Below, one piece after another: positions 3,487 to 26,663 of a DNA stretch of 64,000 bases. The stretch's first letter is position 1. Each line of letters begins with the position of its first letter. Under the pieces are notes generated by a model, which was not told where the DNA came from, ran no database searches, and saw only the letters and a program-made list of their open reading frames with translations. The position numbers and the translations under genes were made by a program. Origin of the DNA: Acidobacteria subdivision 13 bacterium RH2 MAG17b. Its GTDB lineage: Bacteria > Acidobacteriota > Terriglobia > UBA7540. Location of the stretch: the NCBI GenBank assembly GCA_002197525.1, contig NFUN01000019.1:1-64000 (forward strand), written 5' to 3'.

Positions 3487-3862
3487 GCGCTTCGCGCTGG
3501 GGTATTGACCGGCTGAAGATGACCTTGGAGAGTCCGTGAACTAAGTGCTGCTGCCTTCCCGGCAGAGCCTGGGGATGCGCTAGATATTAGGTTTCGCTCA
3601 TGATAACCGCTCTCACCGAAAACCTCTACGCCAAACATTTCCCCAATTCGCAAAAACCGGCCAATTCGACCTGTCCGCCCGATGCTCGGATACCCATTTG
3701 GGTCGCGCATATTGACCATTCGATGCCTTTCGTTTCGCTCCTATGGCTAACCTATCGAATAATCCACGTGTTATCAAAAGCGTGGTCCGGCGTCGGGGCT
3801 TTTGCGCGGCAACCTTTGCGAACGGCGCACGGATCGATTCCCAATCTTAATCGAGGTGAGAC

Positions 3863-5641
3863 ATGAGCGCGACACCCTTCTCCAATCCCCTGCAACCCAG
3901 CGGGCAGGTTCAAATCGGTTCGAACGAGGATTTTATCCACCGGCGTCTTGAAGAAGAGCGGACGCGCCTCGAGCAGGAGGCGGGAATTGAAAGGCGCCCT
4001 ACCGAGCGCTTTCACCGTCCTGTTGAGAACTCTTTCACGCGTTCGCAGCGGGACAAGACCACCATCCTTTTCGGCGGCCTCACTTGGAAGCACGAGAAGC
4101 TTGTGCACGGTGCACTCGAAAGCCTGGGCTACAGATGCGAAGCGCTGCCCGTCCCCAACAAGAAGGCTTTCCAACTGGGCAAAGAATACGGCAACAACGG
4201 CCAATGCAACCCGACCTACTTCACGGTCGGCAATCTCGTCGAGTATGTTCAAGGCCTCGAAGAGAAGGGGCTGAGCAAGAAAGAGATCATTGACCGCTAC
4301 GTCTTTTTCACGGCGGGCGCCTGCGGGCCGTGCCGCTTTGGAATGTACGAAGCGGAGTACCGCCTGGCGCTTCGCAACTCCGGGTTTGACGGATTCCGCG
4401 TTCTGCTCTTCCAGCAAGGCGGCGGCCTGAACCAGGCGGAGGCTGCGGCCGGGCTCGAAATGAACCTGGATTTCTTCCTGGGCATCCTGAACGCGCTCAA
4501 CATAGGCGACGTGGTCAACGACACGGCCTATCAGATTCGCCCTTATGAAGTTAACCCTGGCGAGACGGACCGTGTGCTGGATGAGTGCATGGATCTGCTG
4601 CAAGAAGTCATGCGCCGCAAGCAGCCCTACACGCTCGAAGGTAAGCTGGGCTCTATGCTAAAGAACACGTCGTTCTCAGGCACAGCCGTGATGGTAGGCA
4701 AGTTCCTCAACCAACTCTATGGCGATGATTACACCGCGGCCCTCGAAGAAGTACGCGACCGGTTCAATGCGATTCCCATTGACCGCACGCGGGTGAAGCC
4801 GTTGGTGAAAGTCACCGGGGAGTTCTGGGCGCAGACCACGGAAGGCGACGGCAACTTCAATATGTTCCGCTTCCTTGAAAAGGAAGGCGCGCAAGTGCTG
4901 GTCGAGCCGATCGGGACCTGGATCATGTATATGATCCACCAGGCCAAGCAAAAGATTAAGGATGAAAAGGGGCTGGACCTGATCGCCAACCGCATTTCCA
5001 AATGGAACCTGGCCAAGGTGTTCGGCAGCCATCTGGACACAAAACAGAAGCTTGCCAAGCTTACATTTGCCGAGGCGATCTTCAAGCGCGAATACACCCG
5101 CCTGATTGACGCGCTTGGTTCCGTTGCCCATCACCTCACCGACCAGTACGAAATGCAACGCCTCGGCCATCCCTTCTATAACTCGCGGGCGGGCGGCGGC
5201 GAAGGCCACCTGGAAGTAGCGAAGAACATCTACTATTCGAACAAAGGCCTTGCCCACATGGTGCTCAGCCTCAAACCATTCGGCTGCATGCCTTCAAGTC
5301 AATCCGACGGCGCACAGTCAGCCGTTGTCTCGCAATACAAGGACATGATCTTCCTGCCCGTCGAAACCTCCGGCGAAGGCGACGTGAACGCCCACAGCCG
5401 CGTCCAGATGGCGCTGGGCGAGGCCAAGATTCGATCCAAGAACGAGATGAAGGAAGCTCTTGCAAAAACCGGCACTACGATCGAAGAGATTCAGGAGTTC
5501 GTGAAGGACCATCCTGAGATGCAGCGCCCGATGTATAAATTCGGACACCGCAAGGGCGTGGTGGGCGTGGCCGCGAACTTCGTCCTGCACGCCGCCGAAC
5601 GCATGAAGGCCGAGATGCACGAAACCGTAGCAGTTGGGTAG
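3863..5641 (+). CDS. HgdB-like subunit of a PlsA/Ger-type reductase
   Basis: This 592-residue protein belongs to the 2-hydroxyacyl-CoA dehydratase/benzoyl-CoA-reductase-like group (HgdB-like). Candidate iron-sulfur or active-site cysteines are in NNGQCNPTYF, TAGACGPCRFGMYEAE and KPFGCMPSS; the last is typical of the C-terminal part of large activase-type proteins. The start has GAGGTGA four bases upstream. The gene is followed, 108 bp on, by the double-activase gene, and the pair together carries the domains found fused in clostridial plasmalogen synthase PlsA and in proteins proposed as glycerol ester reductases (Ger). Inferred role: ATP-driven low-potential reduction of an acyl ester, perhaps to an ether lipid. 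A true 2-hydroxyacyl-CoA dehydratase is less likely, since no HgdA-like partner or CoA transferase is present. Confidence 0.75.
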   Translation: MSATPFSNPLQPSGQVQIGSNEDFIHRRLEEERTRLEQEAGIERRPTERFHRPVENSFTRSQRDKTTILFGGLTWKHEKLVHGALESLGYRCEALPVPNKKAFQLGKEYGNNGQCNPTYFTVGNLVEYVQGLEEKGLSKKEIIDRYVFFTAGACGPCRFGMYEAEYRLALRNSGFDGFRVLLFQQGGGLNQAEAAAGLEMNLDFFLGILNALNIGDVVNDTAYQIRPYEVNPGETDRVLDECMDLLQEVMRRKQPYTLEGKLGSMLKNTSFSGTAVMVGKFLNQLYGDDYTAALEEVRDRFNAIPIDRTRVKPLVKVTGEFWAQTTEGDGNFNMFRFLEKEGAQVLVEPIGTWIMYMIHQAKQKIKDEKGLDLIANRISKWNLAKVFGSHLDTKQKLAKLTFAEAIFKREYTRLIDALGSVAHHLTDQYEMQRLGHPFYNSRAGGGEGHLEVAKNIYYSNKGLAHMVLSLKPFGCMPSSQSDGAQSAVVSQYKDMIFLPVETSGEGDVNAHSRVQMALGEAKIRSKNEMKEALAKTGTTIEEIQEFVKDHPEMQRPMYKFGHRKGVVGVAANFVLHAAERMKAEMHETVAVG

Positions 5642-5722
5642 CGCAGCGTTGCTCTACAACTCTGCGACCTATACAAAGAAAAAATGCCGCAGCGTTTCTG
5701 AGGAGCGTAACTCGGCGCTACA
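5639..5722. repeat. Degenerate GTAGCGCAG...GGCGCTAC repeat
   Basis: The gap between the two reductase genes begins GTAGCGCAGCGTTG and ends CTCGGCGCTAC, with GCAGCGTT and CTCTGCG words like the hairpins at 1034-1189. It is a decayed copy of the same dispersed repeat, so the two genes were probably closer before it arrived. Confidence 0.45.
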
Positions 5723-5749
5723 AGCACCATGCTTGAGGGAGGCTTCACA

Positions 5750-8700
5750 ATGAATATTCACGGCCCAAAGGACCTGATGGTTGGCTTGGACGTAGGTTCA
5801 ACCACCGTCAAGTCCGTCGTTATGGACCTGAACACGCAGGACATCCTCTGGAGGGACTACCAGAGGCATGACACGAAACAGCCCGAAAAGGTGCTGGAGT
5901 TCCTGAAGCGCATGGAAGCCGAGACGGGGATCAAAGCCGGTGAAACCCGCATTTTCATCACCGGCAGCGGCGGCGGCGGTATCGCTCCGCGCATCGGCGC
6001 TAAGTTCGTGCAGGAAGTGAACGCCGTGTCCCTTGCGGTGGAACACCTCTATCCCGAATGCGGCTCGGTCATCGAGCTGGGCGGGCAGGACGCCAAGATC
6101 ATCATCTTTAAAGAAGATCCTGAAACCGGCCGCAAAAAGAAAATCCCCTCCATGAACGACAAGTGCGCCGGAGGCACGGGCGCCGTGATCGACAAGATCA
6201 ACGCCAAGCTGCGCATCCCCGCCGAGCAACTCTGCCAGATGGGCTACTTCGGCATGAAGCTTCATCCCGTGGCCGGCAAGTGCGGCGTTTTTGCCGAAAC
6301 GGATATTAACGGCCTGCAAAAAAGCGGCGTACCGCCCGATGAGATGATGGCCTCGCTCTTCGAAGCTATCATTCAGCAGAACCTATCGGTGCTCACGCGC
6401 GGCAACACGCTCCTCCCGGTGGTATTGCTGCTTGGCGGCCCGAACACCTACATCACGGGGATGCGCGATTGCTGGCGGCACAATATTCCGAAGGTCTGGG
6501 AGGAGCGCAACACTCCGCTGCCCGAGGGCAAGGACCCAAAGGAACTAATCCAGGTTCCGGAAAACGCTCAATACTTCGCGGCCATCGGTTGCGTGCGGTT
6601 CGGCATGGATGAGGACGCGAACGTCGGCGTCTACCAGGGCTTCGAAAAGCTCGATTGGTACATCAACGTGGGACGGACGGAAGAGAAGCAGAAGCGAGGC
6701 TCGGGAGGGCTTTACAAGACCGAAGACGAGCTCGCAGCCTTCAAGGACCGGTATAAGCCGAATAAGTTCATCCCCAAGACGTTTGAGCCCGGCGAGCACG
6801 TGAAGGCGTTTATGGGCATCGACGGCGGCTCCACTTCCACCAAAGCCGTCCTGCTCAGCGAGCAGGGCGAAGTGATGGTGAAGTGCTATCAACTTTCCAA
6901 GGGCAATCCGCTCGAAGACGCGATGGAGATGTTTTCGAACCTACGCAACCAGGTGGAAGCCCAGGACGCGACGCTCGACCTGCTCGGCATCGGCACCACG
7001 GGCTACGCCAAGGACATCCTGAAGGACGTGCTCCAGGCCGACGTGGCCATCGTTGAAACCGTGGCGCACACGGAAGCCGCGCTGCACTTTTATCCCGACG
7101 CCGACGTGATCTGCGACGTGGGCGGCCAAGACATCAAGCTGATCATCTTGCAGAATGGCCGCGTGAAGGACTTCAAGCTCAACACGCAATGCTCGGCTGG
7201 CAACGGTTACTTCCTGCAGTCCACCTGCGCGGGGTTTGGCCACGACATCAAGGACTACGCAGACCTGGCGTTCAGCGCCAAGGCGATGCCGATGTTCGGC
7301 TACGGCTGCGCCGTCTTTATGCAGTCGGACATCGTGGACTTTCAGCGGCAAGGCTGGAGGCCGGAAGAGATTATGGCCGGGCTCGCCAACGTCCTGCCCA
7401 AGAACATCTGGCTTTACGTCTCTCAGATTCCAAACCTCGCTTCACTCGGAAAAACCTTCATCCTGCAAGGCGGCACGCAGCACAACCTGGCGGCCGTGAA
7501 GGCGCAGGTGGATTTCGTCGAATCCCGCTTCAAAGATAAGGGCGGCAAACCCAACGTCATCGTCCACGAGCACTGCGGAGAGTCCGGCGCCATTGGCGCC
7601 GCGCTCGAATCGCGGCGCCTTTACAATTTTGGGCAGAAGACCCGCTTTATAGGCTTCGAGGCCGTGGAGCAGATTTCCTACGTGACCCATCGCAATGAGG
7701 GTACGCGCTGCTATTTCTGTAAGAATAAGTGCCTGCGGACGTTTATTGACGTGAAGATCGCGGGCGCCGACGAGTCCGCGAAAAAGACCAAGATTCCCAT
7801 ACTCAAAGACGTGAAGCGCCTGATCGTGGGCAATAGCTGCGAAAAGGGCTTGGTTGAAGACGTCGCCGACATGCGCGACATCAAACGCGACCTCGACGCC
7901 ATGAAAAAGAAGAATCCCAACATGGCGGAGGTTGGAGCGCGCTACGCCTTCCGCTCCTATGAGCCTCCCAGCGTGGCCGATCCGCTGCCCAAGTTCACCC
8001 TTACCGCCGGGCAGAAACGGCGCGTGGAACTCATGAAGCGGCGCAAGGACCTGCGCATCGGCGTGCCGCGCATCTTGAACGTCTATTCGGTTATGCCCAT
8101 TTTCAGCGCCTATTTCGAGGCCCTGGGCATCAAAGCCGAAAACATCATTTACTCGGATTATACGAGCGAACAGCTTTACAAGGAGGGCGCAAAGCGCGGC
8201 GCGATCGATCCGTGTTTTCCCTCCAAGGTCGGCATCCCGCACGTTCACAATCTGCTCTACGCGCACCACACCAAGAAGCCGCTCGACATGATTTTTTGCC
8301 CGATGATCGACGACCTGCCGAGCGACCTGAAGTTTGCCCAGTCGCATCGCTCCTGCCCTACCGTGGCTACCACTCCGGAAGCGGTGAAGGCGGCCTTCAC
8401 CAAGGAAGGCGATCTGTTCAAGCAGAACAACATCCTGTATCTTGACACTTTCGTTAATCCGGGCAAGCCGGCGCTTCTGGCAAAGCAGCTCTACGATCAG
8501 TTTGCGGATATCTTCGGGCTTTCCATGGAGGAGAATCTGCGAGCGGTCGCGGAAGGCTACAAAGCTCAGGACAAGTTTATGGACGGCGTCCTACGCGCCC
8601 AGGGCCGCGAAATCCTGAAGGAACTGGAGGCCGAGGATCGTATCGGCATCGTCCTGCTTGGCCGCCCGTACCACAACGATCCAGGCATCAATCACGAGAT

Positions 8701-9274
8701 TCTGGAGGAATTCCAGAAGATCGGCTATCCCGTGCTCACGCTTCAGTCGTTGCCCATCGATGACGACATCCTGCGTCCCTTGTTCGAGGAGGATATGAAG
8801 GCCGGCGTCATCGAGCATCCCATGGACATCCGCGATGTTTGGAAGAACAGCTATAGCGAAAACACGTCGCAGAAGGTTTGGGCCGCCAAGTACACAGCGC
8901 GCCACCCGAACCTGGTGGCGCTCGAACTATCGAGCTTCAAATGCGGGCACGACGCTCCCATTTACTCCGTGGTTGAAGAAACGGTCACCAAATCCGGCAC
9001 TCCGTACTTCTCGTTTAAGGATATTGATGAGAACAAGCCGACCGGCTCCATCAAGATTCGCGTGGAAACCATCGGCTATTTCCTAAAGCGCTACCGCGAA
9101 GACCTCGCCCGCAAAAACCAGAAGCACCGGGAAATCGACGCACGGCTTGACGAGCTAGAGGCTCAACTCCGCGCTGAACTAGGCCCGCCTTCCGTTGGCG
9201 CGCCGCCTGAGCCATACGAGGCCGAAATGCCGGTTGCGGTGAACGCCATACGGGCCATCCGCCGCGAAGAATAG
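5750..9274 (+). CDS. Double ASKHA activase with DUF2229 domain
   Basis: This 1174-residue protein has two BcrAD/BadFG (HgdC-like) ATPase domains and a DUF2229 domain. Domain 1 (about residues 8-300) shows GLDVGSTTVKS, ELGGQDAK and the cluster cysteine motif DKCAGGTGA. Domain 2 (about 353-625) shows GIDGGSTSTKA, DVGGQDIK and NTQCSAGNG. A cysteine-rich linker (CYFCKNKC near 654) leads to DUF2229 from about 769 (RIGVPRILN, DPCFPSK, SSFKCGHD). In HgdC the equivalent cysteines hold a [4Fe-4S] cluster that passes electrons on ATP hydrolysis. The start at 5750 is preferred over 5729 because GAGGGAGG lies 7 bases before it. It probably energises the upstream HgdB-like protein; together they match the domain set of PlsA/Ger. 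Confidence 0.85.
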   Translation: MNIHGPKDLMVGLDVGSTTVKSVVMDLNTQDILWRDYQRHDTKQPEKVLEFLKRMEAETGIKAGETRIFITGSGGGGIAPRIGAKFVQEVNAVSLAVEHLYPECGSVIELGGQDAKIIIFKEDPETGRKKKIPSMNDKCAGGTGAVIDKINAKLRIPAEQLCQMGYFGMKLHPVAGKCGVFAETDINGLQKSGVPPDEMMASLFEAIIQQNLSVLTRGNTLLPVVLLLGGPNTYITGMRDCWRHNIPKVWEERNTPLPEGKDPKELIQVPENAQYFAAIGCVRFGMDEDANVGVYQGFEKLDWYINVGRTEEKQKRGSGGLYKTEDELAAFKDRYKPNKFIPKTFEPGEHVKAFMGIDGGSTSTKAVLLSEQGEVMVKCYQLSKGNPLEDAMEMFSNLRNQVEAQDATLDLLGIGTTGYAKDILKDVLQADVAIVETVAHTEAALHFYPDADVICDVGGQDIKLIILQNGRVKDFKLNTQCSAGNGYFLQSTCAGFGHDIKDYADLAFSAKAMPMFGYGCAVFMQSDIVDFQRQGWRPEEIMAGLANVLPKNIWLYVSQIPNLASLGKTFILQGGTQHNLAAVKAQVDFVESRFKDKGGKPNVIVHEHCGESGAIGAALESRRLYNFGQKTRFIGFEAVEQISYVTHRNEGTRCYFCKNKCLRTFIDVKIAGADESAKKTKIPILKDVKRLIVGNSCEKGLVEDVADMRDIKRDLDAMKKKNPNMAEVGARYAFRSYEPPSVADPLPKFTLTAGQKRRVELMKRRKDLRIGVPRILNVYSVMPIFSAYFEALGIKAENIIYSDYTSEQLYKEGAKRGAIDPCFPSKVGIPHVHNLLYAHHTKKPLDMIFCPMIDDLPSDLKFAQSHRSCPTVATTPEAVKAAFTKEGDLFKQNNILYLDTFVNPGKPALLAKQLYDQFADIFGLSMEENLRAVAEGYKAQDKFMDGVLRAQGREILKELEAEDRIGIVLLGRPYHNDPGINHEILEEFQKIGYPVLTLQSLPIDDDILRPLFEEDMKAGVIEHPMDIRDVWKNSYSENTSQKVWAAKYTARHPNLVALELSSFKCGHDAPIYSVVEETVTKSGTPYFSFKDIDENKPTGSIKIRVETIGYFLKRYREDLARKNQKHREIDARLDELEAQLRAELGPPSVGAPPEPYEAEMPVAVNAIRAIRREE

Positions 9275-9678: not shown

Positions 9679-10035
9679 ATGACATTCTGGCGACAGGACG
9701 TGATTCAGCCAGCGCTCGACGCCGACGTGGAGGCCGAGGTCCGCGAGCAGGAGGATCTGATTCGCAGCAACCCTGCGGACCCTTTTGCGCATTTCGCCCT
9801 GGCTTCGCTGGCACATTTCCGTGGGCAGACCGAAAGAGCCATTCAGCACTTTGAAAAGGCTATTGAGTTGGACCCCGCTTATGCGGCGCCGTGCGTAAGT
9901 CTGGGGCGCATCTATGCCGTCCGCGGCGACTACGATCGGGCATGGAAGCACGCCCGAGAGGCTGCTCAGCGTGGCGATTCTACCTTGCTCGGCCAGCTTG
10001 CGAGGTACCCAAATCTGGCAAAAGTCAGTCAATAA
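9679..10035 (+). CDS. Small TPR protein
   Basis: This is a 118-residue soluble protein. Residues about 28-100 form two to three tetratricopeptide helices (NPADPFAHFALASLAHF, ERAIQHFEKAIELDPAY, PCVSLGRIYAVRGDYDRAW). TPRs mediate protein-protein contacts, so a scaffold role in the neighbouring reductase/radical-SAM system is possible but unproven. It lies in the same-strand run between the activase and the radical SAM enzyme. The start is uncertain: AGGA lies too close to the ATG at 9679. Confidence 0.65.
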   Translation: MTFWRQDVIQPALDADVEAEVREQEDLIRSNPADPFAHFALASLAHFRGQTERAIQHFEKAIELDPAYAAPCVSLGRIYAVRGDYDRAWKHAREAAQRGDSTLLGQLARYPNLAKVSQ

Positions 10036-10464: not shown

Positions 10465-12552
10465 ATGCCAAGAGATAGAAGACAGCAGATGATGAAGTAT
10501 TTCGACAGTGCGTTATGCTCGTTCGCCGGCGCGACGTTCAATACCATCCAGTTTTTCAACAAGTACAGCCCAAACCCGGCCTTCACTCCCAAATGGTCCG
10601 ATAAGCCTCTGCTGAAATCATGGCAGAAAACCAGGCCTCAACTGGGATTTCCGCGTGAGACTGACTCGCTTTGTCCGGATTGTGTGAAGGAGGCTCGAGA
10701 GAGAATCATCAACGGGGAGCAGGATATAAACACACTCCTCAATGAAAAAGTGGGCGAAATCAAGGCTCAGATTATCGAACGCGACGGGCAGGTCTGGATG
10801 GTGAAAGATTGCCCGATTCACGGCCATTACGAAGACATGATGGCGGTGGATGTGAACTTCCTAGCGTGGATTGAAAAGAACTTCCCAGGCCGTGATATCC
10901 GGGCGCACAATGACGAGAAACTTCACAATCACGGTTCCAGCACCATCCGCCACGGACGCGGCTCCGTGTTGACGGTTGACCTCACCAACCGCTGCAACAT
11001 GATGTGCGACCCGTGCTTTATGGACGCCAACCAAGTCGGCTTCGTGCACGAGCTTACGTGGGAAGATATCACAGAGATTCTGGATAACGCCCTCAAAATC
11101 AAGCCGCGCCGCCAGATGTCCGTGCAGTTTTCGGGTGGTGAGCCCACCATGTCCCCGTACTTCATCGACGCCGTCCGTTACGCCCGCAAGATCGGCTACA
11201 ACAGCGTGCAGGCCGCAACGAACGGAATTGAATTTGCCAAGGACAAGGAATTCTGCCGCCGCGCATTTGAAGCCGGCCTCCGTTATGCTTACCTGCAGTT
11301 CGACGGCGTCGGCAACGATGCCAATAACCACCGGCAAGTGGGCAACCTGTTTGACGTTAAGCTGAAGGCCATCGACAACATGCACGAGGCCGGCATCGAC
11401 ATCATTCTCGTGACGACGCTCGTCAACGGCGTCAACAACGATCAGGTCGGTCCCATCATCAAGTTCGCGCGCGCGAATCCCAAGAAGATCGCTTTCGTCG
11501 CCTTCCAGCCGGTTTCCTTCACTGGCCGCGATGAAGACATCACTCCTGAACGCCGCTTAAGGCAGCGCTACACGCTCTCGCACATGGCGAGGGATGTGAA
11601 AACACAGCTCGGCATCACCGAGCCCACGCGTGACTGGTTCCCTCTTTCGCTCTTCAGCACGTTTGCGGATTTCGCGGACCTGGCTCACGGGCCGGAGTCA
11701 CAGTGGGGTCAGGTGAGTTGCGGATGCCACCCAAACTGCGGCATTGGCACCGCGCTGATGATCAACAAGGAGAACGGCGAGTGGGCGCCTGTGCCCGAGT
11801 TCCTGAACGTGCCGGGGCTGATCAAGGATGTCCAATCGATTACCGACGCGGGGCGGAAAAAGTGGTTTTCTAATCTCATGATGGGACTGGCTCTTCTCAA
11901 GAACTACAAACCTTCAAAGGCCCCGGCCAGCTTGGCGCTGGTGGACATCCTCAAGAAGTTCGATAAATCCTTCGCGCTGCGAGGCGAGGACAAAACCAAG
12001 CAGATTTATGGCGATTCCGGGCCTGACCGCACGCTCGAAGACACCATCAAGAGGCGCCAGGATCCCTGGAACTTCCTCTTCATCGCCGGTATGTGGTTCC
12101 AGGATCTGTTCAACTACGATTTCCGCCGCACCGAAATGTGCATCATCCCTTACGCCACGCAGCAGGGTGAAATCTCATTTTGCGCGTACAACACCGGCAT
12201 CGGCTGGCGGAAGATTATCGAGAACATGCACAAGAACGCGACCGTGGCCGAATGGTACAAGGAGCACGGCAAGCATGAGATCTATGCCCGCGGCAAGAGC
12301 GTGAGCCTGGAAAACTTCGAGCACTCTCTCCAGGTGGATCAAGCCGACGCCGCTCGCGTTCGCGAAGTCGAGCACGACGTTCCGCTCACGGCTTCCGAAG
12401 AAGAACGAGCCCGCCGCAAGGCCGCTTGGGAAGCACAGCAGGTGCGCCAGATGTACGAGGAGATCGTCCTCAAAAAGCCTGCCCCCGAACTCGTGCAGAT
12501 CGGAAGCGCGAACCCTGCTCCTCAGCCGGAAGCGGAGAAGGTTTCCGTCTAA
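10465..12552 (+). CDS. Tes/Mss-like radical SAM lipid-coupling enzyme
   Basis: The 695-residue protein has a radical SAM core with CNMMCDPC (C177, C181, C184) binding the SAM-activating [4Fe-4S] cluster and SGGEPT near 223. An N-terminal zinc-ribbon-like part has CPDC near 70-73 and CPIHGHYED near 116, and a C-terminal part carries CIIPYATQQGEISFCAY. This arrangement (N-terminal CxxC plus CPxHG, then the SAM motif, then a late cysteine pair) is that of archaeal tetraether synthase Tes and its bacterial membrane-spanning-lipid-synthase relatives, which join two acyl or alkyl tails by C-C bonds. It follows the PlsA/Ger-like genes on the same strand. Inferred product: an iso-diabolic-acid or brGDGT-type core lipid. 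A different radical SAM function cannot be excluded. Confidence 0.75.
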   Translation: MPRDRRQQMMKYFDSALCSFAGATFNTIQFFNKYSPNPAFTPKWSDKPLLKSWQKTRPQLGFPRETDSLCPDCVKEARERIINGEQDINTLLNEKVGEIKAQIIERDGQVWMVKDCPIHGHYEDMMAVDVNFLAWIEKNFPGRDIRAHNDEKLHNHGSSTIRHGRGSVLTVDLTNRCNMMCDPCFMDANQVGFVHELTWEDITEILDNALKIKPRRQMSVQFSGGEPTMSPYFIDAVRYARKIGYNSVQAATNGIEFAKDKEFCRRAFEAGLRYAYLQFDGVGNDANNHRQVGNLFDVKLKAIDNMHEAGIDIILVTTLVNGVNNDQVGPIIKFARANPKKIAFVAFQPVSFTGRDEDITPERRLRQRYTLSHMARDVKTQLGITEPTRDWFPLSLFSTFADFADLAHGPESQWGQVSCGCHPNCGIGTALMINKENGEWAPVPEFLNVPGLIKDVQSITDAGRKKWFSNLMMGLALLKNYKPSKAPASLALVDILKKFDKSFALRGEDKTKQIYGDSGPDRTLEDTIKRRQDPWNFLFIAGMWFQDLFNYDFRRTEMCIIPYATQQGEISFCAYNTGIGWRKIIENMHKNATVAEWYKEHGKHEIYARGKSVSLENFEHSLQVDQADAARVREVEHDVPLTASEEERARRKAAWEAQQVRQMYEEIVLKKPAPELVQIGSANPAPQPEAEKVSV

Positions 12553-15543: not shown

Positions 15544-16530
15544 CTACAGGCTGGCGCTGCGAGAAACTATGAGGGGTTTTGCTGAGCGCGAAGGGTGCAT
15601 CAACACTGGCAGCTTTCCCGGCAGCACAGTAATCTCCAAAGGCAGCTTTCCCACCGGCTCGCCATCGACTTCGATAAACGTAGGATTCTCGGCGTGGGCC
15701 TCAACCCGGATGCCGCGCAGGTGATGCGCTTTCGGGTGCTGATAGATCTCACCGGAATATAGGACGCGAATATCGCGGATCAGCCGTAGCATGTTCATGT
15801 ACTCGATGACGGTCACCTCCAGCACTCCATCGTCCATCACCGCCGTAGGGCAAGGATGCATTCCTCCACCGTGGAAGCGCCCGTTGCCTACCGCCACGTT
15901 CGTCACGTGATACTCCGCGGGAGCGCCGCCGTCGAGAGTAACCCGCACGGTCCTGCCCCGATAACTCAGTAGCACTCGAAACGTGGCCCAAAGAAAAGCG
16001 GCCCGGCCGCCGAATACGCCGAAGGAATTCCGGGCCCGCTCCGCAACCAAGCCGCCCATTCCGAAGCTGACTAGATTGACGAAGTATCGCTCCTGCGTCT
16101 GCCCGTCTAGCGTCACGAATTTTGCCTTGCCGGCGTCAATGAATTGAAGTTCGCCATTCGCGAGCGTATCGAGCACCTGTTCCAAGCGATTCTGCCCGTT
16201 GAATCCGAACATCCGCTGGAAATCGCCGCCGGTCCCGGCGGGAAGGATGCCCATCGCCGCTCCCATACGCACCAACTCATCGGTTTCGAGGAAGCCGTTC
16301 GCAATCTCATTGAACGTGCCGTCACCGCCGGCACCGACGATCAGATCGAAGCCCTCACCGAGCAGCTCCCGAGTAAGTTGAACGGCGTGGCCCCGGCGTT
16401 CCGTGAACCGCACAGTTACCGGACCCAGCCGCCGCTCGAGCTGGCGCGAAATCTCAGGCCACCGCTTGCCCGTCTTGCCGCTCGCGGAATGCGGATTAAC
16501 GATCGCAGCGATCTTGCGCGTTGGTTTCAT
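15544..16530 (-). CDS. Diacylglycerol/lipid kinase family protein
   Basis: 328 residues, the normal length for the YegS/DgkB/BmrU lipid kinase family. The nucleotide-binding GGDGTFNE is at residues 68-75, preceded by NPHSASGKTGK near 12 and followed by LPAGTGGDF near 95. Family members phosphorylate diacylglycerol or related lipids at the inner membrane face, recycling them to phospholipid precursors. The start overlaps the stop of the upstream epimerase gene (ATGA, 16527-16530), so translation is probably coupled. It is the last gene of the minus-strand run that includes PlsY and acyl-activating genes, supporting a role in lipid assembly. Confidence 0.85.
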   Translation of the reverse strand: MKPTRKIAAIVNPHSASGKTGKRWPEISRQLERRLGPVTVRFTERRGHAVQLTRELLGEGFDLIVGAGGDGTFNEIANGFLETDELVRMGAAMGILPAGTGGDFQRMFGFNGQNRLEQVLDTLANGELQFIDAGKAKFVTLDGQTQERYFVNLVSFGMGGLVAERARNSFGVFGGRAAFLWATFRVLLSYRGRTVRVTLDGGAPAEYHVTNVAVGNGRFHGGGMHPCPTAVMDDGVLEVTVIEYMNMLRLIRDIRVLYSGEIYQHPKAHHLRGIRVEAHAENPTFIEVDGEPVGKLPLEITVLPGKLPVLMHPSRSAKPLIVSRSASL

Positions 16531-17576
16531 GCGCCTGTCATTGTTCCGGAGCGCACCCTTGCTGTGCTCACCCTGTCACTGCCTTCAGCCGGCTGGTGCT
16601 GCAAGTCTTCCACCGTGTCTCTGAGAGTTGCGAGAGGATCGCGAGTAGTAAAGCCCAGTTCGTTACGGGCCTTGCTCGAATCGCAGTACCAGAACAGACT
16701 CGACATCTTAATAGACGCTTCATCCAGGCGAAATGATTTGCCGAACAGTGGAAAAAGGCGGCGCAGCAGCCGCGCGCTCCAGATGGAAAATTGTAAAGAG
16801 GGTTCGAGCGAGGGCGCACTGCGGCCCGCGATTCGCGCGACGGTCTGTATGATCTCGCGAAAAGTCCAGTTGGGTCCGCCCAGCAGATAGCGCTCTCCCG
16901 GCTCGCCGTGTTGCATGGCGGCTCGCAAGCCCGCCGCCGCGTCACGCGCATCCACAAAGTTCAAGCCGCCTCGCGGAATGGCTAAAATCTGGCCTTCCAG
17001 GAAGAGCGCCACGTCTCCCGTCGAGGAGCGCCGGTCGTCGCCCGGCCCGAAAAGCAAACTCGGATTCACCACCACCACCGGCAAGCCGCGCCGGTGAAAG
17101 TAATCGCGCGCCAGCTTTTCGGCGAAGATTTTGCTCAGATAGTACGGCCACTCGCCCACCACATCATTCTTGTACCCGGAGTCTTCATTGTGCACCACAG
17201 GCTCCGGGCCGACGGCAATCGTGCCGGAAGAAGATACCGCCACCACCTTCTTCACGCCCGCCCGTAACGCGGCCTCACAGACGTTCAGGGTCCCTTCGAC
17301 GTGGGTGCGAAAAAGCAGCGCGGAGTCTTTCGGATCGCGGGAAACAACGCCGGCAAGATGATAAATCTCACTCGCGCCCTCGGCGGCGCGAAACACGTCT
17401 TCGCGGGAAACCACGTCACCGCGCACCACCTCAATGCCCGGTTCGTGATCCCATCGTGTCTCCGAGCGGCTGAGCAGGCGCAATCGCGATTGCGGCTCCC
17501 TTGTCCTGATATCTCCCACCAGGTGTTTGCCAAGAAAACCGGTAGCGCCGGTAATCAGGATGGATTTCATGTTCAT
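16527..17576 (-). CDS. NAD(P)-dependent epimerase/dehydratase (extended SDR)
   Basis: 349 residues of extended short-chain dehydrogenase type. The N-terminal dinucleotide site reads GATGFLGKH (from residue 10), with YYLSK as the catalytic Tyr-x-x-x-Lys and VVNPSLLFGPGD downstream. The C-terminal lobe (about 250-345) binds substrate. It resembles the HpnA-like/3-beta-hydroxysteroid-dehydrogenase-like epimerases often found beside lipid genes; the substrate may be a nucleotide sugar or a lipid. It overlaps the lipid kinase by 4 bases. An alternative start two codons in (17570) is equally possible. Confidence 0.8.
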   Translation of the reverse strand: MNMKSILITGATGFLGKHLVGDIRTREPQSRLRLLSRSETRWDHEPGIEVVRGDVVSREDVFRAAEGASEIYHLAGVVSRDPKDSALLFRTHVEGTLNVCEAALRAGVKKVVAVSSSGTIAVGPEPVVHNEDSGYKNDVVGEWPYYLSKIFAEKLARDYFHRRGLPVVVVNPSLLFGPGDDRRSSTGDVALFLEGQILAIPRGGLNFVDARDAAAGLRAAMQHGEPGERYLLGGPNWTFREIIQTVARIAGRSAPSLEPSLQFSIWSARLLRRLFPLFGKSFRLDEASIKMSSLFWYCDSSKARNELGFTTRDPLATLRDTVEDLQHQPAEGSDRVSTARVRSGTMTGA

Positions 17577-17620
17577 CCCCGCAGAGGACCGCTGGCAAGA
17601 GCCGCTCGCTCCCCGCCCGG

Positions 17621-18055
17621 TTACCGCCGGAAGGGATTTGTAACACGCAGTTTCGGAAATCTCAGAAAGTCGTCATCGTTCGTCAGGATTTCCTCAACGC
17701 CATGCTCAATCAACAGCGCTGCGATATGCGCGTCGTGCAGCAGATTGCCTGCCACTGGCGAGCCGTGCAAGAGATCATCGACGATAGCGCGGTGTCGCTC
17801 ACCCTCGGAGAGCACCACCACGGAGGGCGAATCCAGGAGCAGCCTCACGGCTTCCCAAGCCGCATGGACCGGTGTGGGCGGATGGAATACTCGCGGGTGT
17901 GTGACGACACGAAGGAACTCGTAAATACACGGCCAAGGCAACGCCCAGGGCTCAGCGCCCGTGCTCAGCCCGGCAAGGAGATCGCGGGCCACCGGATGCT
18001 CCGGCGGTTCCTGGCGGCGAGCATACACCAGGATGTTCGTATCCACGGCCCGCAT
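17621..18055 (-). CDS. VapC-type PIN-domain toxin
   Basis: 144-residue PIN-domain ribonuclease. Acidic metal-binding residues are in VDTNILVYA (D at residue 4), the YEFLRV segment, HDAHIAAL and TNDDDF, in the usual order. VapC toxins cut RNA, often initiator tRNA or rRNA, unless held by VapB. Its ATG shares one base with the stop of the antitoxin gene (TGATG, 18053-18057). It sits 44 bp from the epimerase gene, an insertion of a small selfish module into the lipid gene run. Confidence 0.85.
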   Translation of the reverse strand: MRAVDTNILVYARRQEPPEHPVARDLLAGLSTGAEPWALPWPCIYEFLRVVTHPRVFHPPTPVHAAWEAVRLLLDSPSVVVLSEGERHRAIVDDLLHGSPVAGNLLHDAHIAALLIEHGVEEILTNDDDFLRFPKLRVTNPFRR

Positions 18056-18291
18056 CAGCGGCCGTCCATCAGATCAAACAAGGATTCGCGGTCATTCAGT
18101 CGCGCGCCAGGCTGGATGGTTCCAAGAGGGTCCACCTTCCAGTCAAACCGGTATTTGGGTCTCTGCTCAGGGCGATCCAGAGTGCGGCGCAACAGTTCAT
18201 TCACTACCTGGCGCAAGGTTGTCCCCCTTGCAGCAGCTTGGCGCTTCAACTCGCGAAATACCCGGTCATCCAGCTCAATAGTAGTTCTCAT
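18055..18291 (-). CDS. VapB-type ribbon-helix-helix antitoxin
   Basis: 78 residues from the chosen start (MRTTIELDDRVF); an in-frame codon at 18309 would add six residues. The N-terminal RTTIELDDRVFRELKRQA and TLRQVVNELLRR form a ribbon-helix-helix DNA-binding fold, and the C-terminal tail (PKYRFDWKVDP onward) should wrap the toxin. The gene pair is probably self-repressed through its own promoter in the gap 18292-18381. Confidence 0.8.
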   Translation of the reverse strand: MRTTIELDDRVFRELKRQAAARGTTLRQVVNELLRRTLDRPEQRPKYRFDWKVDPLGTIQPGARLNDRESLFDLMDGR

Positions 18292-18381
18292 ACACAGAAG
18301 CATATTCAAGATACATATTTATGTCAATCGTCATCCAGTCGCTTCTTTGCGGCCCACGCCAAACAGTTTTTCATCAATCTC

Positions 18382-20073
18382 TCAAACGGTCTGCGGTACT
18401 CCCGCCACGTCCGCCATCAGGATGGGCGCGAAATGCATCATCGTGACGCTCGGCTTGCGCCCAACATGCGATTCCGCCATGGCGAGCGCCTCATTCATAT
18501 TGGGCGCCGTCTCCCATCCCATCAGCTTGGCGGCGCGCTTCGATTCCGCTCCAACGCAGATCACCTTGCCCGTGTGCGCGCGGCCGTTTTCGCCCCAATA
18601 CCACATGTAGAACGGATGCACGCCGTGGTAGGCGTTGCCCGTGCGGTACATGCGGATGTAATCGGGGTTGTGCGCGAACTCCGCCTCATACTTCCGCTGC
18701 AGTTCCAAGGAGTCGCGCGTCTCGGGCAGCAGCCGGTGGAAGAATTCGATATAAGACGGATGATGGAGGGGATCAAATTCGTCATAAAGCGGATGGGTGA
18801 TGATGAGTACGCCATTCTTCTTCACCACCGGCATGCCGCGGTACATGTTGTGAAAGTAACCGAGCGCCATCACCTGCACGAGGAGGGGGTTCAGAATAGA
18901 GTTCACATTATATGGGGAAACGAACGGGATGCCATAAACAACCACATCCGACTGCTGGTCCACCGGCACGCAGTACTGCGCGTAGCAGTATGCGAGGGTT
19001 TTCGCGTGGGTAGGCAACGTAGCGCCCGCGTGGACCGCGATCATCGCGTACGGAGCCGGAATGCCGAACAGTATCTTCCTCTTGAGGCTTCGTGAAAGCT
19101 TGCTCAAACCGTGGCGGGTAGCGCTGAACATCATGCGGTCGTAGGCGTTGTGACGGTCTTCGTTCTTTACGAAAAAAGCCATGCGGGGATCGAACATCGC
19201 GTTATTCAGCACCGTCTCGATGTGAAACACTTTCAGGTGATCGTTGATCACCTTGCCGATGCGGTCGCAGGAGCGGCCCATTTCCGACCGCGTGTGGTCG
19301 AAGTATGAATCGCACTTCAGTATCGTCTGGGGTGTGTGATGGGCTTGGAGCGTGGGGTAATCGCAAAGCCCGACTCCCACCGACTTATTGCCGCCATCCA
19401 TGGGTACCAGATTGATGTTCACGTAAATCAAAAGATCGGATTCGGCGGCTCGGCGGTTCAAGCGCACATGCTCGCCATGCTCCGTCACTCCGAGTTCCAC
19501 CATGCCACCAGGAGCCTCGCCGTCGTGGTTGTACAAGCGACCGGGATGATAGGCGCGGAAAATCCGCGAGCCTACCGCATGCTCGATCTCCGGTGCGGTC
19601 ATGCGGCGGTGAAACGAGGTCGCAACGATGATGTGGACGTCGTCAACACCCTTGGCGGCGAGCAACTCGAGCACGATCGTCAGGACGGACTCCCGGACAT
19701 CCGGGCGCTTCATGGGCGGCAGCGGCAAAGAAATGTCATCTATGGCGATAGTCGCCTTCATGCCCGGCTTGAGGAGAGACTCGAGCGGCTCCATGCCTTC
19801 CGGGTGGTCTAGCGCGTAGCGGATGGCGGCAAGGCGGTCGCGGAGGCCTGGGATGGTGGGCTTTGGGTAAACCACGCGGGCGCCTGCCGGCATTTCCACT
19901 TCGAGCAGATCCTCGCCGTACCACATCAGCCGCGGGCGCGAGCTGGATTCAAGATGTACTACACACCCGTCAGGAGAAACTAACGCATCACGGCCCACCG
20001 CATTCGGCGCGGGATCGGTGGATTCGAGGATTTGGTCGAGCGCCTTGTGCGGCACGTCAAGATACGTGGACAT
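18382..20073 (-). CDS. DUF2088 (LarA-like) protein, atypical active site
   Basis: 563 residues, longer than lactate racemase (about 420-430). LarA features in order: [23 protein letters not shown] (keeps the first catalytic histidine), [10 protein letters not shown], then [13 protein letters not shown]. LarA normally has Asn-Lys (cofactor-anchoring lysine) and a later Glu-Pro-His (nickel ligand); here the matching places read Asn-Arg and LVPMDGG, so the nickel-pincer ligands seem lost. That comparison is from memory of the family. The start at 20073 is preferred over 20127 because GCGAGGA precedes it. It overlaps the HAD gene by 17 bp. Function unknown; lactate racemase activity is doubtful. 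Confidence 0.7.
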
Positions 20074-20782
20074 GATTTCCTCGCTCCACTCCCGGCTTGC
20101 TCCGGCCCTGGCGGCCGAGTTCGACAATCGGCCAGCCTCGCGCCTTCGCCACTTTCCTGAGCCGCGCGTCGGGGTTGACGGCGGACGGCTTTCCCACAGC
20201 CTCGAGCATGGGAACGTCGGAAAAACTATCCGAGTACGCCTTTGCCTGCGCGAGTTCGGCGCGATGATTCTGGCATTCCTTCTCCATCACCTCAACTTTT
20301 CCCTCTTCGGCAAGCAAGGGCTGCGCCACTTCTCCGGTGGCGACGCCGTTTTCAAAGATAAGTGAATTGCACACGAGCCCGTCAAAACCGAAGTAACGCA
20401 CCACCGGAGCCAAAATTGAACCGATCTCACCCGTCACCAAAACCACGCGAAAACCCTGTTGCCGGTCCTGCTGAACCAAATCGAGCGCTCCGGGGTATAT
20501 GCCGGGGCGTATCACCCGCTCAAAAAGTTCTTCCGACTGCTGTTCGAGCCAGGCGCGGCTCACACCACGATATTCACGGAAGAAAACCTGGTTGAAAAGC
20601 CGCCGGGAAAGGCGGTCCAGCAAGAGATAGGTGGGAACACTCGAAATGAGCCTCAAGTTCTTCCACGTCGACATGGCGCGCGAAGGCAGGCGCTGAATCA
20701 GGGAGGCGTAACGAGTAACGATGTTGCTCGCCACGAGCGTTCCGTCAAAATCGTAAAAGGCGATTCGCACTGTTTCCTTCAT
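20057..20782 (-). CDS. HAD-IB family phosphatase
   Basis: 241 residues. HAD motif I is DFDGTLV (residues about 10-16), motif II VLVTGE, and motif IV YSDSFSDVPML; the helical cap lies between the first two. This is the SerB-like HAD-IB layout, whose members remove phosphate from serine, lipid-linked or small metabolites. Coupled to the DUF2088 gene by overlap and 285 bp downstream of the PlsY paralogue, it may act on a lysophosphatidate or phosphatidylglycerophosphate-like intermediate, but this rests on context only. Confidence 0.8.
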   Translation of the reverse strand: MKETVRIAFYDFDGTLVASNIVTRYASLIQRLPSRAMSTWKNLRLISSVPTYLLLDRLSRRLFNQVFFREYRGVSRAWLEQQSEELFERVIRPGIYPGALDLVQQDRQQGFRVVLVTGEIGSILAPVVRYFGFDGLVCNSLIFENGVATGEVAQPLLAEEGKVEVMEKECQNHRAELAQAKAYSDSFSDVPMLEAVGKPSAVNPDARLRKVAKARGWPIVELGRQGRSKPGVERGNHVHVS

Positions 20783-20794
20783 CTCTCATGTTCG

Positions 20795-20883
20795 TTGGGT
20801 GGCGCATCCATATCGGTTTGTGCGATGTATGCGATTTAATTCACGTTCGCAGACATCGAAAAGCTCCGATGTCTGCGCCACCC
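20795..20883. repeat. GGGTGGCGCA-bounded hairpin repeat
   Basis: It begins GGGTGGCGCATCCATATCGG and ends with the complementary CCGATGTCTGCGCCACCC. An inner 11-bp stem CGCAGACATCG/CGATGTCTGCG lies at 20848-20858/20867-20877. Related pieces occur at about 29180, 31850, 52065 and 53010. It lies between the HAD and PlsY genes and could form RNA structure in the operon transcript. Confidence 0.6.
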
Positions 20884-20950
20884 GATTTCGTATAGCCATT
20901 TGAGCCTCGCTACACTAACGAGGCTCCGCCTCAGACCGCCGAAGCATGGC

Positions 20951-21020
20951 CCCCTCACCCGTCCCGCTACGCAGTCCACCCTCTCCCCCGGCTGGGGGAG
21001 AGGGTCTGGGAGTGAGGGGG
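20951..21020. repeat. CCCCTCACCC...GTGAGGGG hairpin repeat
   Basis: The inner arms ACCCTCTCCCCC (20978-20989) and GGGGGAGAGGGT (20994-21005) pair perfectly over 12 bp with a GGCT loop; outer CCCCTCAC and GTGAGGGG also pair. A closely related hairpin forms the core of the element at 47217-47364. It sits 47 bp from the PlsY stop and could also lower read-through. Confidence 0.65.
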
Positions 21021-21067
21021 CGGCGCAAACTTAACTCATTCACATCCAGTTTCGCAACTCTAGGATT

Positions 21068-21661
21068 CTAGCTTTGCGCGGTGGCCGCCTCCCGCCGCTC
21101 GCCGATATGAGCAAGGTTTTTCTTGTGCCGCCAAAACAGAAAGGCGGTCACGCCGGCGGCGCACAACCAGTCATCCCGTCCTTCAAAAAAAACCATCATC
21201 ACCACGAACAGCGCCCAGGCAGAGAGCGAAGCGATGGCGCCTGCTTCTTTCAACTTCAACATCTTGCTACCCGCCACTCGCGTGGCCGCGAAAAAGGCCA
21301 GGGCGATGGCAGCGTAGACCGGATAGAGCACCAGCATCACACCCGCCGAAGTGGCGATGCCCTTGCCTCCATTGAACTTCAGAAAGGGCGAATAACAGTG
21401 CCCGAGAATAGCGGCAAATCCAAAAAGCCAATCCTGCCAGACGGCGGTCGCGCCGTGGCGCACCAACAGCAGAGCCACAATGCCCTTGCCCATGTCCCCG
21501 ATCAACGCCACGAGCGCGCGCGGCACGCTCACGCGCAGCACGTTGTTGAACCCTGGATTGCCCGAGCCCACCTTGCGGATGTCAACACCGGAGCCCGCCA
21601 TGGCCAGCACGGCGAAGGGGATCGAACCGCAAGCAAAACATATTAGAATTCGAATCAGCAT
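21068..21661 (-). CDS. PlsY-type glycerol-3-phosphate acyltransferase paralogue
   Basis: 197 residues, five or so membrane helices. The three PlsY motifs are present but altered: motif 1 GSIPF...DIRKVGSGNPGFNNVLR (usual form GSGNIGATN), motif 2 GDMGKG, motif 3 GHCYSPFLKFNGGKGIAT (usually Phe-Pro in place of Tyr-Ser). PlsY moves an acyl group from acyl-phosphate to glycerol-3-phosphate to start phospholipid synthesis. The divergent motif 1 and its place after an acyl-activating fusion gene suggest a specialised paralogue, not the housekeeping enzyme. The start at 21661 puts 10 residues before GSIPF, as is usual; 21715 is the alternative. Confidence 0.85.
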   Translation of the reverse strand: MLIRILICFACGSIPFAVLAMAGSGVDIRKVGSGNPGFNNVLRVSVPRALVALIGDMGKGIVALLLVRHGATAVWQDWLFGFAAILGHCYSPFLKFNGGKGIATSAGVMLVLYPVYAAIALAFFAATRVAGSKMLKLKEAGAIASLSAWALFVVMMVFFEGRDDWLCAAGVTAFLFWRHKKNLAHIGERREAATAQS

Positions 21662-21726
21662 AACGACCGGCGTCTCCACCGGTTTCTTTCGGTGCTGAGC
21701 ACAGTGCCGCACCATCGTTCAATCCA

Positions 21727-24573: not shown

Positions 24574-24911
24574 GGAATGGTTTGTCTTTCGCGACGCGTT
24601 CTGCGGCTGTGCCGCTTGCTGTGCGGAAAGGCTTCGCCTTTCCGGCGCCCGGCAATCCTTCCCAACCTGGTTTTCTTTGGGCGCGAAGGCTGAGCCTTCG
24701 CGCCCAAAGAAAATTATAAGAATGTGCGTCCATGGCCGGAAAGCCATAGGCATTCCGCACAACGGGGCGGCGCAGCCGCTCCCACATCGGAATGTGCGCT
24801 AATGGACGGGCTTGCGGTGAGGCGGCGATGCTGCAACCGTGAACCCCTCACCCAACTTACCAGTTTGCCATGAGACAGATGAGATTCATGAAACTGTTTT
24901 TTTTCGACGGC
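24574..24911. other. Palindrome-rich gap in the acyl-lipid operon
   Basis: The gap carries the 21-bp-arm palindrome at 24671-24713, a hairpin CGGAAAGGC-TTC-GCCTTTCCG at 24624-24644, and GTGCG-type inverted words around 24723-24800. The ligase reading frame runs through part of it without a stop, but the translation is of repeat type, not protein-like. No ribosome site of note precedes 24573. Confidence 0.55.
24671..24713. repeat. 43-bp perfect palindrome, 21-bp arms
   Basis: 24671-24691 and 24693-24713 are exact reverse complements with a single G between them; the arm starts TTTTCTTTGGGCGCGAAGG. In transcripts from the minus strand the hairpin is followed by GG-rich sequence, not a T-run; its own T-run is in the stem. 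It lies about 100 bp before the ligase start and about 200 bp after the reductase stop, so it could tune expression between the two. Confidence 0.8.
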
Positions 24912-26486
24912 TCAGATGCTAAAGGTCCAGTCCCGGACGGCCTCAGGCTGAACCCATTTTTCGATCCCGGCGATCTGGTGGTGAATCCAATAGCGCTCCC
25001 AATCAATCTGCTCCGGTTGCCAAGAAAGCCGTTCCCGGTCGCTCGGGGCAAGAGCGGAGTAGGCGGCGCGGATATTTTCCGACTCGAAGACGTAACGGTT
25101 CTGCAACACAAAGGGCAGGTACTGCTCAAGCGTCTGTTCGCGGAATTTGGCTTGCAAATCGAGCTTGCGCAACTCCGCCGACCAGCTAGCTAGCCATTTT
25201 CCCCCCGGCAATCCCGCCTTTTCAAGAGCAGTCTGGCCGCCCGCTAGCCAACGCTGAGAGCGCGCGATATTACCCTGCAGGCGAAGCCGGCGAGATCGAG
25301 CATCCTCAGCCGAGACAAACCGGGCCTTGCCTCCTCGCCGCGCACCGCCCAGCCAGTCCATGAACCGCCGCCCCAGCGCTCCGTTTCCATTGCGTGCGCC
25401 GCGCCTTCGCGCCTCTCGATCCAGCAGCTCCACAATGGCGCCAAGGGTGCACGGATTCACATCCGCCGAGCCAAGTTGGTAAACCGCCCGATGCCGCTTT
25501 TGAAGCAGCAGCGAAGCCACCGCAAGAATTGCCGCCGCTGTCATATCCACCGGGACAATTTCGAGCGGCGCATCTTCCCGCACCGGCCAATCCTTGAGTC
25601 CACCGAGCGCCATTAGAACGAGCGGCGCGGCGGTGCGGCCGCCCTCAATCCAGCCGGGAAAAGGAAATTGCCAGGCACTCTCCACAATGGCCGGACGGAC
25701 GATTGCGTACTCCAGGCCCGGCGCCGAAGCGATGATCTGTTCGCCGAGACTCTTGGAATAAGTGTAAGTGTTCACCCATCCCCAGTCCGCGGCTCGCTGC
25801 CTGCCGAGCGCAGTCAGCCGTTGGGCCAGCTCCCGGGAACGGCGGCCCTCCGCAGCGCCGTTCGAGCCTTCTGACTCATAAATCTGGCGGATAATCTCTC
25901 GCGCGCGCTGAATCTCTTCGGCGTGATTGAAGCGCTGGTCCTCCGGACCGCGACGGTGAGGGTAGAAACCGGGAATCGGTTCGGTTTCCTCAACCAGCCC
26001 GTCCCTCTCGCCAGAAACAAAGGCCGTCGAAACGTGCAGCAGCGGCGCTCCGAGGCTTTGCGCGAACTCGACGACATTCGCCACTCCATCGACGTTCGAG
26101 CTGAAGGAGTCATCGAGCGGAGGAAAGAAGTCCACTCGGCCGGCGCAATTCAGCACCAGCCCGACGCGCCCTGCGAGGCGTCCGCAATCCGCCGCATCCA
26201 GACCGCATCGCGGCGCGCTGATGTCCCCGGACCATAGGGTGATCCGGCTGTCCAGAAACTCCCTGCCCTTCGCGGCGGCAATCCCGGAAAGCGCCGGAGA
26301 TGCCAGCACCTCATCGGCGAAGCGCTGGGCAGCGGACAAATCCGCTCGCGGACGAACCAAAATGTGGAGGTGTTTAAGGTTCGGGTACCGGTCCAGAAGC
26401 ATTCCCAGGATCACTTTCCCCAGGAAGCCGTTGGCCCCGGTCAGAAAAAGCTCGCGTTCTTGGAATATTTGACTGGATTCGGTCAA
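24912..26486 (-). CDS. Fatty acyl reductase (male-sterility/NAD_binding_4 type)
   Basis: 524 residues from a TTG start at 26486. LFLTGANGFLGK near residue 10 is the NADPH site, HVSTAFVSG and YTYSKSLGEQ carry the active Ser/Tyr/Lys, and VRPAIVESAWQFPFPGW is a family signature; the C-terminal 150 residues are the extra fatty-acyl-reductase domain. The enzyme reduces an acyl-CoA or acyl-ACP to aldehyde or alcohol. It is first in the operon with the ACP-ligase fusion, so its substrate is probably the acyl-ACP made there, giving fatty alcohols for ether lipids or wax esters. No ATG fits; AGGGG lies 6 bases before the TTG. Longer frames would run into the permease promoter. Confidence 0.8.
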   Translation of the reverse strand: MTESSQIFQERELFLTGANGFLGKVILGMLLDRYPNLKHLHILVRPRADLSAAQRFADEVLASPALSGIAAAKGREFLDSRITLWSGDISAPRCGLDAADCGRLAGRVGLVLNCAGRVDFFPPLDDSFSSNVDGVANVVEFAQSLGAPLLHVSTAFVSGERDGLVEETEPIPGFYPHRRGPEDQRFNHAEEIQRAREIIRQIYESEGSNGAAEGRRSRELAQRLTALGRQRAADWGWVNTYTYSKSLGEQIIASAPGLEYAIVRPAIVESAWQFPFPGWIEGGRTAAPLVLMALGGLKDWPVREDAPLEIVPVDMTAAAILAVASLLLQKRHRAVYQLGSADVNPCTLGAIVELLDREARRRGARNGNGALGRRFMDWLGGARRGGKARFVSAEDARSRRLRLQGNIARSQRWLAGGQTALEKAGLPGGKWLASWSAELRKLDLQAKFREQTLEQYLPFVLQNRYVFESENIRAAYSALAPSDRERLSWQPEQIDWERYWIHHQIAGIEKWVQPEAVRDWTFSI

Positions 26487-26663
26487 CAGCGCCCCTATGC
26501 AATGAAGGAATGTTATCGACCGCGTTCGGCGCTTGTCAAGGCTGGATGCGCCGGACGCGCTTCTTTCGGGATTCCCGGCCGCAGGTGTCTTATACTTCGG
26601 TATCGGCGGAGCGGCCATCAACGGGGTGCGCGCCCTGGGGCCGAAGACGAAACGCAGGGTATC

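Follow-up and report, generated by a model that had tools for sequence, protein, structure and literature searches.

Does a gene for an HgdB-like reductase component placed before a gene for a double activase represent a PlsA/Ger-type lipid reductase that has been cut in two and reordered, or an enzyme with a lineage of its own? The question is raised by Acidobacteria subdivision 13 bacterium RH2 MAG17b, a soil-type acidobacterium of which positions 1–64,000 of contig NFUN01000019.1 (the 64-kb window) were analyzed. Two open reading frames (ORFs) are of interest, both intact and on the forward strand: R (3863–5641), encoding a PlsR/HgdB-like reductase component (Red2) of 592 residues, and A (5729–9274), encoding a 1181-residue double activase with a DUF2229 domain. 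We find that the pair is homologous to PlsR and PlsA and belongs to a deep, distinct clade that is not a rearranged PlsA. We propose, at an even chance, that R and A form a two-component, ATP-driven, oxygen-sensitive [4Fe-4S] lipid-ester reductase that resembles Ger and leads to alkyl-ether (tetraether) lipids. This proposal draws on the homology to PlsR and PlsA, kinship with the PlsA clade, a shared set of 14 cysteines, a fold common to benzoyl-CoA reductases and 2-hydroxyacyl-CoA dehydratases (BCR/HAD), the adjacency and rare fusion of the two genes, and neighboring genes related to tetraether synthase (Tes) and to the elb ether-lipid operon.

R is preceded by a ribosome-binding site read directly from the sequence (gaggtga, 3853–3859, forward strand). 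No Pfam family matched it, even at an E-value of 10, and phmmer and hmmsearch runs against the PDB returned chance matches only. An AlphaFold model built from 61 sequences (pLDDT 87, pTM 0.85) was matched best in the PDB, by Foldseek, to BzdNO, HadBC, DCCP, and MbdON (E-values from 7e-4 upward, probabilities reaching 1.00); the fold search succeeded where sequence-only routes to known families failed and assigns R to the BCR/HAD fold. A profile of R orthologs aligned over 396 columns with the PlsR region of homologs, both fused and split (hhalign probability 100, E 3e-43), taking in the common motifs GPCRFGxY and PF-x-CMP. By this alignment R is a homolog of PlsR, which corresponds to the C-terminal portion of PlsA in its fused form, so that a lack of such homology, named by an earlier sequence-only reading as the observation that would count against it, was not what we found. 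No R paralog occurs in the 2.8-Mb, ~90% complete assembly.

A carries two BcrAD/BadFG ATPase domains (2 x PF01869 in Pfam) followed by DUF2229. The first, Act1 (approximately residues 13–290, 5765–6598; boundaries approximate), has putative ligands C146 and C185; the second, Act2 (residues 363–627, 6815–7609, the best PF01869 stretch), has C488 and C527 and aligns with HgdC (1hux). A linker site recognized by sequence conservation (7709–7840) comprises C661, C664, C668, and C704, and the DUF2229 domain (Red1, PF09989, 8054–8749) has C829 and C876, with C1072 downstream of the Pfam match. The AlphaFold model of A has a pLDDT of 85, and the protein shares 29–31% identity, over more than 90% of its length, with fused proteins from, among others, Listeria, Haliovirga, and Collinsella. 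A is the sole DUF2229 protein in the assembly. Its second ATG, at 5750, has the better ribosome-binding site of the two (gagggagg, 5735–5742) and is the likelier start, which would give a protein of 1174 residues and a 108-bp gap after R. A scan for promoters and terminators gave nothing exceeding shuffled sequences.

Eleven of the cysteines named above in A (C146, C185, C488, C527, C661, C664, C668, C704, C829, C876, and C1072) and three in R (C115, C157, and C475, the putative cluster ligands of Red2) match cysteines of Listeria PlsA; these are the 14 cluster cysteines common to that protein and to the clade of the window pair. The cluster motifs that had been listed as retained (DKCAGGTGA, NTQCSAGNG, and the linker CYFCKNKC) are thus real and conserved, and their cysteines are shared with Listeria PlsA. 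To that list C704 may be added as a possible fourth ligand of the linker site. The linker cysteines are kept in 35/35 sequences of the window type and 6/6 of the PlsA clade, and C664 is missing in 5 of 17 others. The pair displays three features of the PlsA/PlsR/Ger superfamily: two BcrAD_BadFG domains and then DUF2229, a partner homologous to PlsR, and cysteines in Act1, Act2, linker, Red1, and Red2.

To place the pair, fused homologs (mostly 1390–1490 residues) and split homologs were gathered within Acidobacteriota. Three architectures were found there: (i) fused A-R; (ii) split A followed by R, with parts of ~1015–1077 and ~440 residues (loci L111–L118); and (iii) R followed by A, the window type, with parts of ~500–680 (R) and ~1100–1280 residues (A). 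Type iii is monophyletic in trees of A, of R, and of both joined, with FastTree support of 0.998–1.0 and, in IQ-TREE on 32 taxa, ultrafast bootstrap (UFBoot) values of 100 for the type-iii clade and for the PlsA clade. Its nearest clade (UFBoot 100) comprises fused PlsA of Listeria, Collinsella, Haliovirga, and Acetoanaerobium along with two acidobacterial proteins, "nearest" meaning here a supported split from the remaining sequences in unrooted trees; other acidobacterial fused and A-first forms fall outside both. The branch to this nearest clade is long, identities between type iii and PlsA-clade proteins are 22–31%, and the window pair is a neighbor, not a member, of the clade formed by PlsA of plasmalogen producers (Listeria has been reported as one; PMC9702350).

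Type iii also occurs together with type ii in single genomes (e.g., G005, G041, G052, G130, G178, G313, and G321) and together with type i in others (e.g., G142, G179, and G314). Since a separate deep clade coexists with fused or A-first forms in the same genomes, the pair is not a PlsA/Ger protein cut and reordered. The sequence-only reading had described exactly that; its PlsA/PlsR homology, its separate genes, and the position of R in front all hold, and the derivation from a split and reversed fused protein does not. A recent split and rearrangement could be suspected from the fused order A-R set against separate genes with R first, but we give it hardly any weight and the tree rules it out: the form is conserved across many phyla in a clade with UFBoot 100, it coexists with fused or A-first forms, and both of its parts are larger (~590 and ~1180 residues) than those of the A-first form (~440 and 1020–1070 residues).

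Gene order was counted by tblastn over 120 type-iii loci, some records of which duplicate one genome. R came first in 107/120, bearing out the earlier description of an HgdB-like gene placed before the double activase; A came first in five, and eight lacked A, four of these because the contig ends inside R. The genes are thus adjacent in 112/120 loci. The A-first loci belong to Chloroflexota (SAR202, Dehalococcoidia, Thermoflexaceae), one Planctomycetota, and one Nitrospirae record, and the four placed in the tree all nest inside type iii. One locus from a single SAR202 metagenome-assembled genome (MAG) encodes A and R joined via a low-complexity linker in one ORF of 1751 residues (L190:5587–10842), and among 197 genomes of that MAG's class all eight R loci have A upstream. 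With both orders and one fusion inside one clade, order and fusion state drift while adjacency is kept. The order had been taken as meaningful, but a gene order so fluid says little about mechanism, and we rejected it as a mechanistic clue. The SAR202 genome with the fusion also has a second, unfused R paralog (L242). Separately, a three-gene form occurs in Acidobacteriota (L076, L094, L095), in which A is divided into a double activase (~740–770 residues) and a DUF2229 protein (~390–520 residues).

The idea that R and A work separately, with A also activating other reductases, could call on the few loci where A is not beside R (L120, L177). We regard it as highly improbable, given the near-universal adjacency, the natural fusion, and the status of A as the only DUF2229 protein in the assembly.

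Nor is a two-gene form in itself unusual, as had been supposed. The plasmalogen synthase of Clostridium perfringens, the first described, is encoded by two genes, plsA and then plsR, and single-gene PlsA occurs in Enterococcus, Lactococcus, and Bifidobacterium (PMC12838417); split A-first pairs are found within Acidobacteriota as well. The C. perfringens system resembles the window pair in its partition (Act1-Act2-Red1 / Red2) and its adjacent genes, and the cysteines of the window pair match those of the Listeria fused form; the window pair differs in its reversed order, its separate clade, and the greater length of both components. Ger proteins of Desulfatibacillum alkenivorans and Thermotoga maritima are PlsA-like with two activase domains, as is A, and linked in the literature with membrane-spanning and ether lipids. 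The tested D. alkenivorans Ger is described as one large protein of 159 kDa (PMC11150832), compared with two genes in the window; the likeness to Ger is one of description. Enzymes of the BCR/HAD superfamily (BzdNO, HadBC, and DCCP, with activators HgdC/HadI) share the R fold, the activase-domain fold, and the use of ATP-driven low-potential electrons, but the window pair combines the two activase domains, the linker cluster, and DUF2229 in a single polypeptide and presumably acts on a lipid and not on a CoA-thioester. What type iii adds, on these comparisons, is a new and widespread branch of putative reductases.

Members of the type-iii clade were found in at least ~11 phyla, nearly all in MAGs, counting named matches whose MAG labels can err. 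Lineages among the matches listed include Acidobacteriota, Ignavibacteria/Bacteroidota, Marinimicrobia, Poribacteria, Polyangia, Planctomycetota, Nitrospina and Nitrospira lineages, Gemmatimonadota, Chloroflexota, Hydrogenedentota, and Thioalkalivibrio. The distribution is patchy among close relatives of the window genome, 34/61 of which have any R match, weak PlsR-like ones included.

Turning to the genes beside the pair, a 695-residue Tes/Mss-like radical SAM protein is encoded downstream of A in the window (10465–12552, forward strand). It scores 317 bits against NCBIfam NF045702, below the cut-off of 450. The gene also follows A in congener G002 (L061), lies on another contig in congener G003, and has near-universal orthologs in relatives of its class (58/61 genomes). 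In three MAGs of Planctomycetota, one of them labeled Phycisphaerae, a bona fide Tes gene (495–499 bits against the same model) lies downstream of R-A (L147:16002–18143, L154:17100–18662, and L198:6623–8161), so that Tes neighbors occur in two phyla. Across the genomes sampled from the phylum Acidobacteriota, R tends to be accompanied by a strong Tes-like gene (24/27 versus 119/270, p 7e-6, uncorrected for kinship). Outside Acidobacteriota, a close Tes-like ortholog was present in only 1/40 R-bearing genomes, with a distant one in three more, the Planctomycetota genomes just named; the R-tetraether link is therefore lineage-specific, and a general co-occurrence of R and Tes beyond Acidobacteriota was rejected. 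Taken as a whole, the clade context suggestively ties type iii to ether lipids, and the context is one of tetraethers.

In the mechanism that we envisage, Act1 and Act2 of A would form an intramolecular pseudo-dimer holding one [4Fe-4S] cluster through C146, C185, C488, and C527, at which ATP hydrolysis would fire single low-potential electrons. These may be relayed via the linker four-cysteine site to a catalytic heterodimer in which the DUF2229 domain of A (Red1) pairs with R (Red2), each contributing three cluster cysteines. There, a membrane glycerolipid would have its ester carbonyl reduced and the oxygen removed to leave an ether bond, probably alkyl as in Ger. The likely substrate in this acidobacterium is an iso-branched (iso-C15 or iso-diabolic) ester lipid, and the pair could act in the same pathway as the neighboring Tes/Mss-like enzyme to give mixed ether/ester or tetraether lipids. 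For Solibacter usitatus, also an acidobacterium, branched glycerol dialkyl glycerol tetraethers (brGDGTs) have been proposed to arise via PlsAR and Tes homologs (PMC10087280); by description these PlsAR homologs resemble the window system and could be either type iii or A-first. More tentatively still, at about one chance in three, type iii would be a further ether-forming reductase branch, present also in lineages that are not commonly considered anaerobes, and in Acidobacteriota and Planctomycetota would, with Tes/Mss-type radical SAM enzymes, provide brGDGTs with their ether bonds.

Several points weigh against the ether-forming proposal. Nitrospinaceae, SAR202, and Thioalkalivibrio, all of which bear R, are not usually considered anaerobes. 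We found no tested activity for any member of the type-iii clade, sequences share little identity with enzymes that have been tested, and many type-iii loci have unrelated neighbors; the scarcity of Tes-like orthologs outside Acidobacteriota belongs here too. Finally, the literature describes PlsA and Ger as inseparable by sequence, and sequence does not decide between a vinyl and an alkyl product (PMC13274423).

Two other activities compete with alkyl-ether formation. A true plasmalogen synthase would have the same architecture and place a vinyl ether at sn-1, and the identical cysteine set and a nearest clade that includes Listeria-type PlsA speak for it. We nevertheless consider it improbable: genomes G142 and G179 each carry a type-iii pair plus a PlsA-clade fused protein, which argues against simple redundancy, Act2 of type iii reads CSAGNG where the PlsA clade has CSAGCG with an extra cysteine, and two-activase homologs tested elsewhere gave alkyl ethers (PMC13274423, citing work on Ger). 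Somewhat more credible, though still doubtful, is an ATP-driven reductase or dehydratase that acts on another hydrophobic substrate (an acyl-CoA, polyprenyl, or hopanoid-type lipid) and forms no ether. It would accommodate the long branch to the nearest clade, the presence of the clade in lineages with no known ether lipids, the fold common to benzoyl-CoA reductases and HadBC, and the squalene genes hpnC, hpnD, and hpnE, which immediately precede R-A at six loci of Ignavibacteria (L129–L132, L135, and L138); the full PlsA/PlsR domain set, as opposed to the smaller BCR/HAD set, the Tes linkage in two phyla, and the nearby elb-like genes favor an ether-forming reductase instead. Reconstructions of past temperature and pH rely worldwide on brGDGTs, and little is known of the organisms and enzymes that make them (PMC13274423). 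A marker at the level of a clade, separable from PlsA by sequence and beside tetraether synthase in two phyla, would offer a concrete gene pair to test, and it would caution against surveys in which any PlsA-like match is counted as Ger.

The elb-like ether-lipid cluster of the window (15544–26954, reverse strand) lies 3–14 kb downstream of the R, A, and Tes-like genes. Its membership is inferred from Pfam and NCBIfam matches and comprises, all on the reverse strand, a fatty acyl reductase (FAR; 24912–26954), a protein with acyl carrier protein (ACP), acyl-AMP-ligase, and acyltransferase domains (21727–24762), a HAD phosphatase (20057–20782), a Lar_N protein (18382–20127), an NAD epimerase (16527–17576), and a lipid kinase (15544–16530). 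Compared by described gene content, it resembles the myxobacterial elb operon (PMC9131029) in its FAR, ACS, ACP, and acyltransferase domains and its HAD and NAD-epimerase genes, and differs in that FAR has a gene to itself. Many members of the family have the cluster, but in relatives' genomes it lies away from R-A; its closeness here is thus particular to this genome and serves as supporting context only, and a conserved linkage was rejected. The two show a weak mutual avoidance (both in 10 genomes, R only in 13, cluster only in 12, neither in 3; p 0.04, uncorrected for kinship or several comparisons).

No conserved third operon member was found, the biggest neighbor clusters beyond R and A covering 12 of ~120 loci and one of them consisting of antisense artifacts. 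Between A and the Tes-like gene, the window encodes a small tetratricopeptide repeat protein (9679–10035, forward strand) that has a weak relative after A in L070, L071, and L072. In Poribacteria, a HAD-family phosphatase related to that of the elb-like cluster lies between R and A (L161:12006–12752 and L128:12034–12522). A radical SAM/SPASM-like protein of ~430–450 residues, weakly HpnH-like, is encoded near R-A in nine loci (L084:4572–5858; also L075, L146, L151, L152, L178, L191, L195, and L196), and iron-sulfur assembly genes recur near R-A in several phyla.

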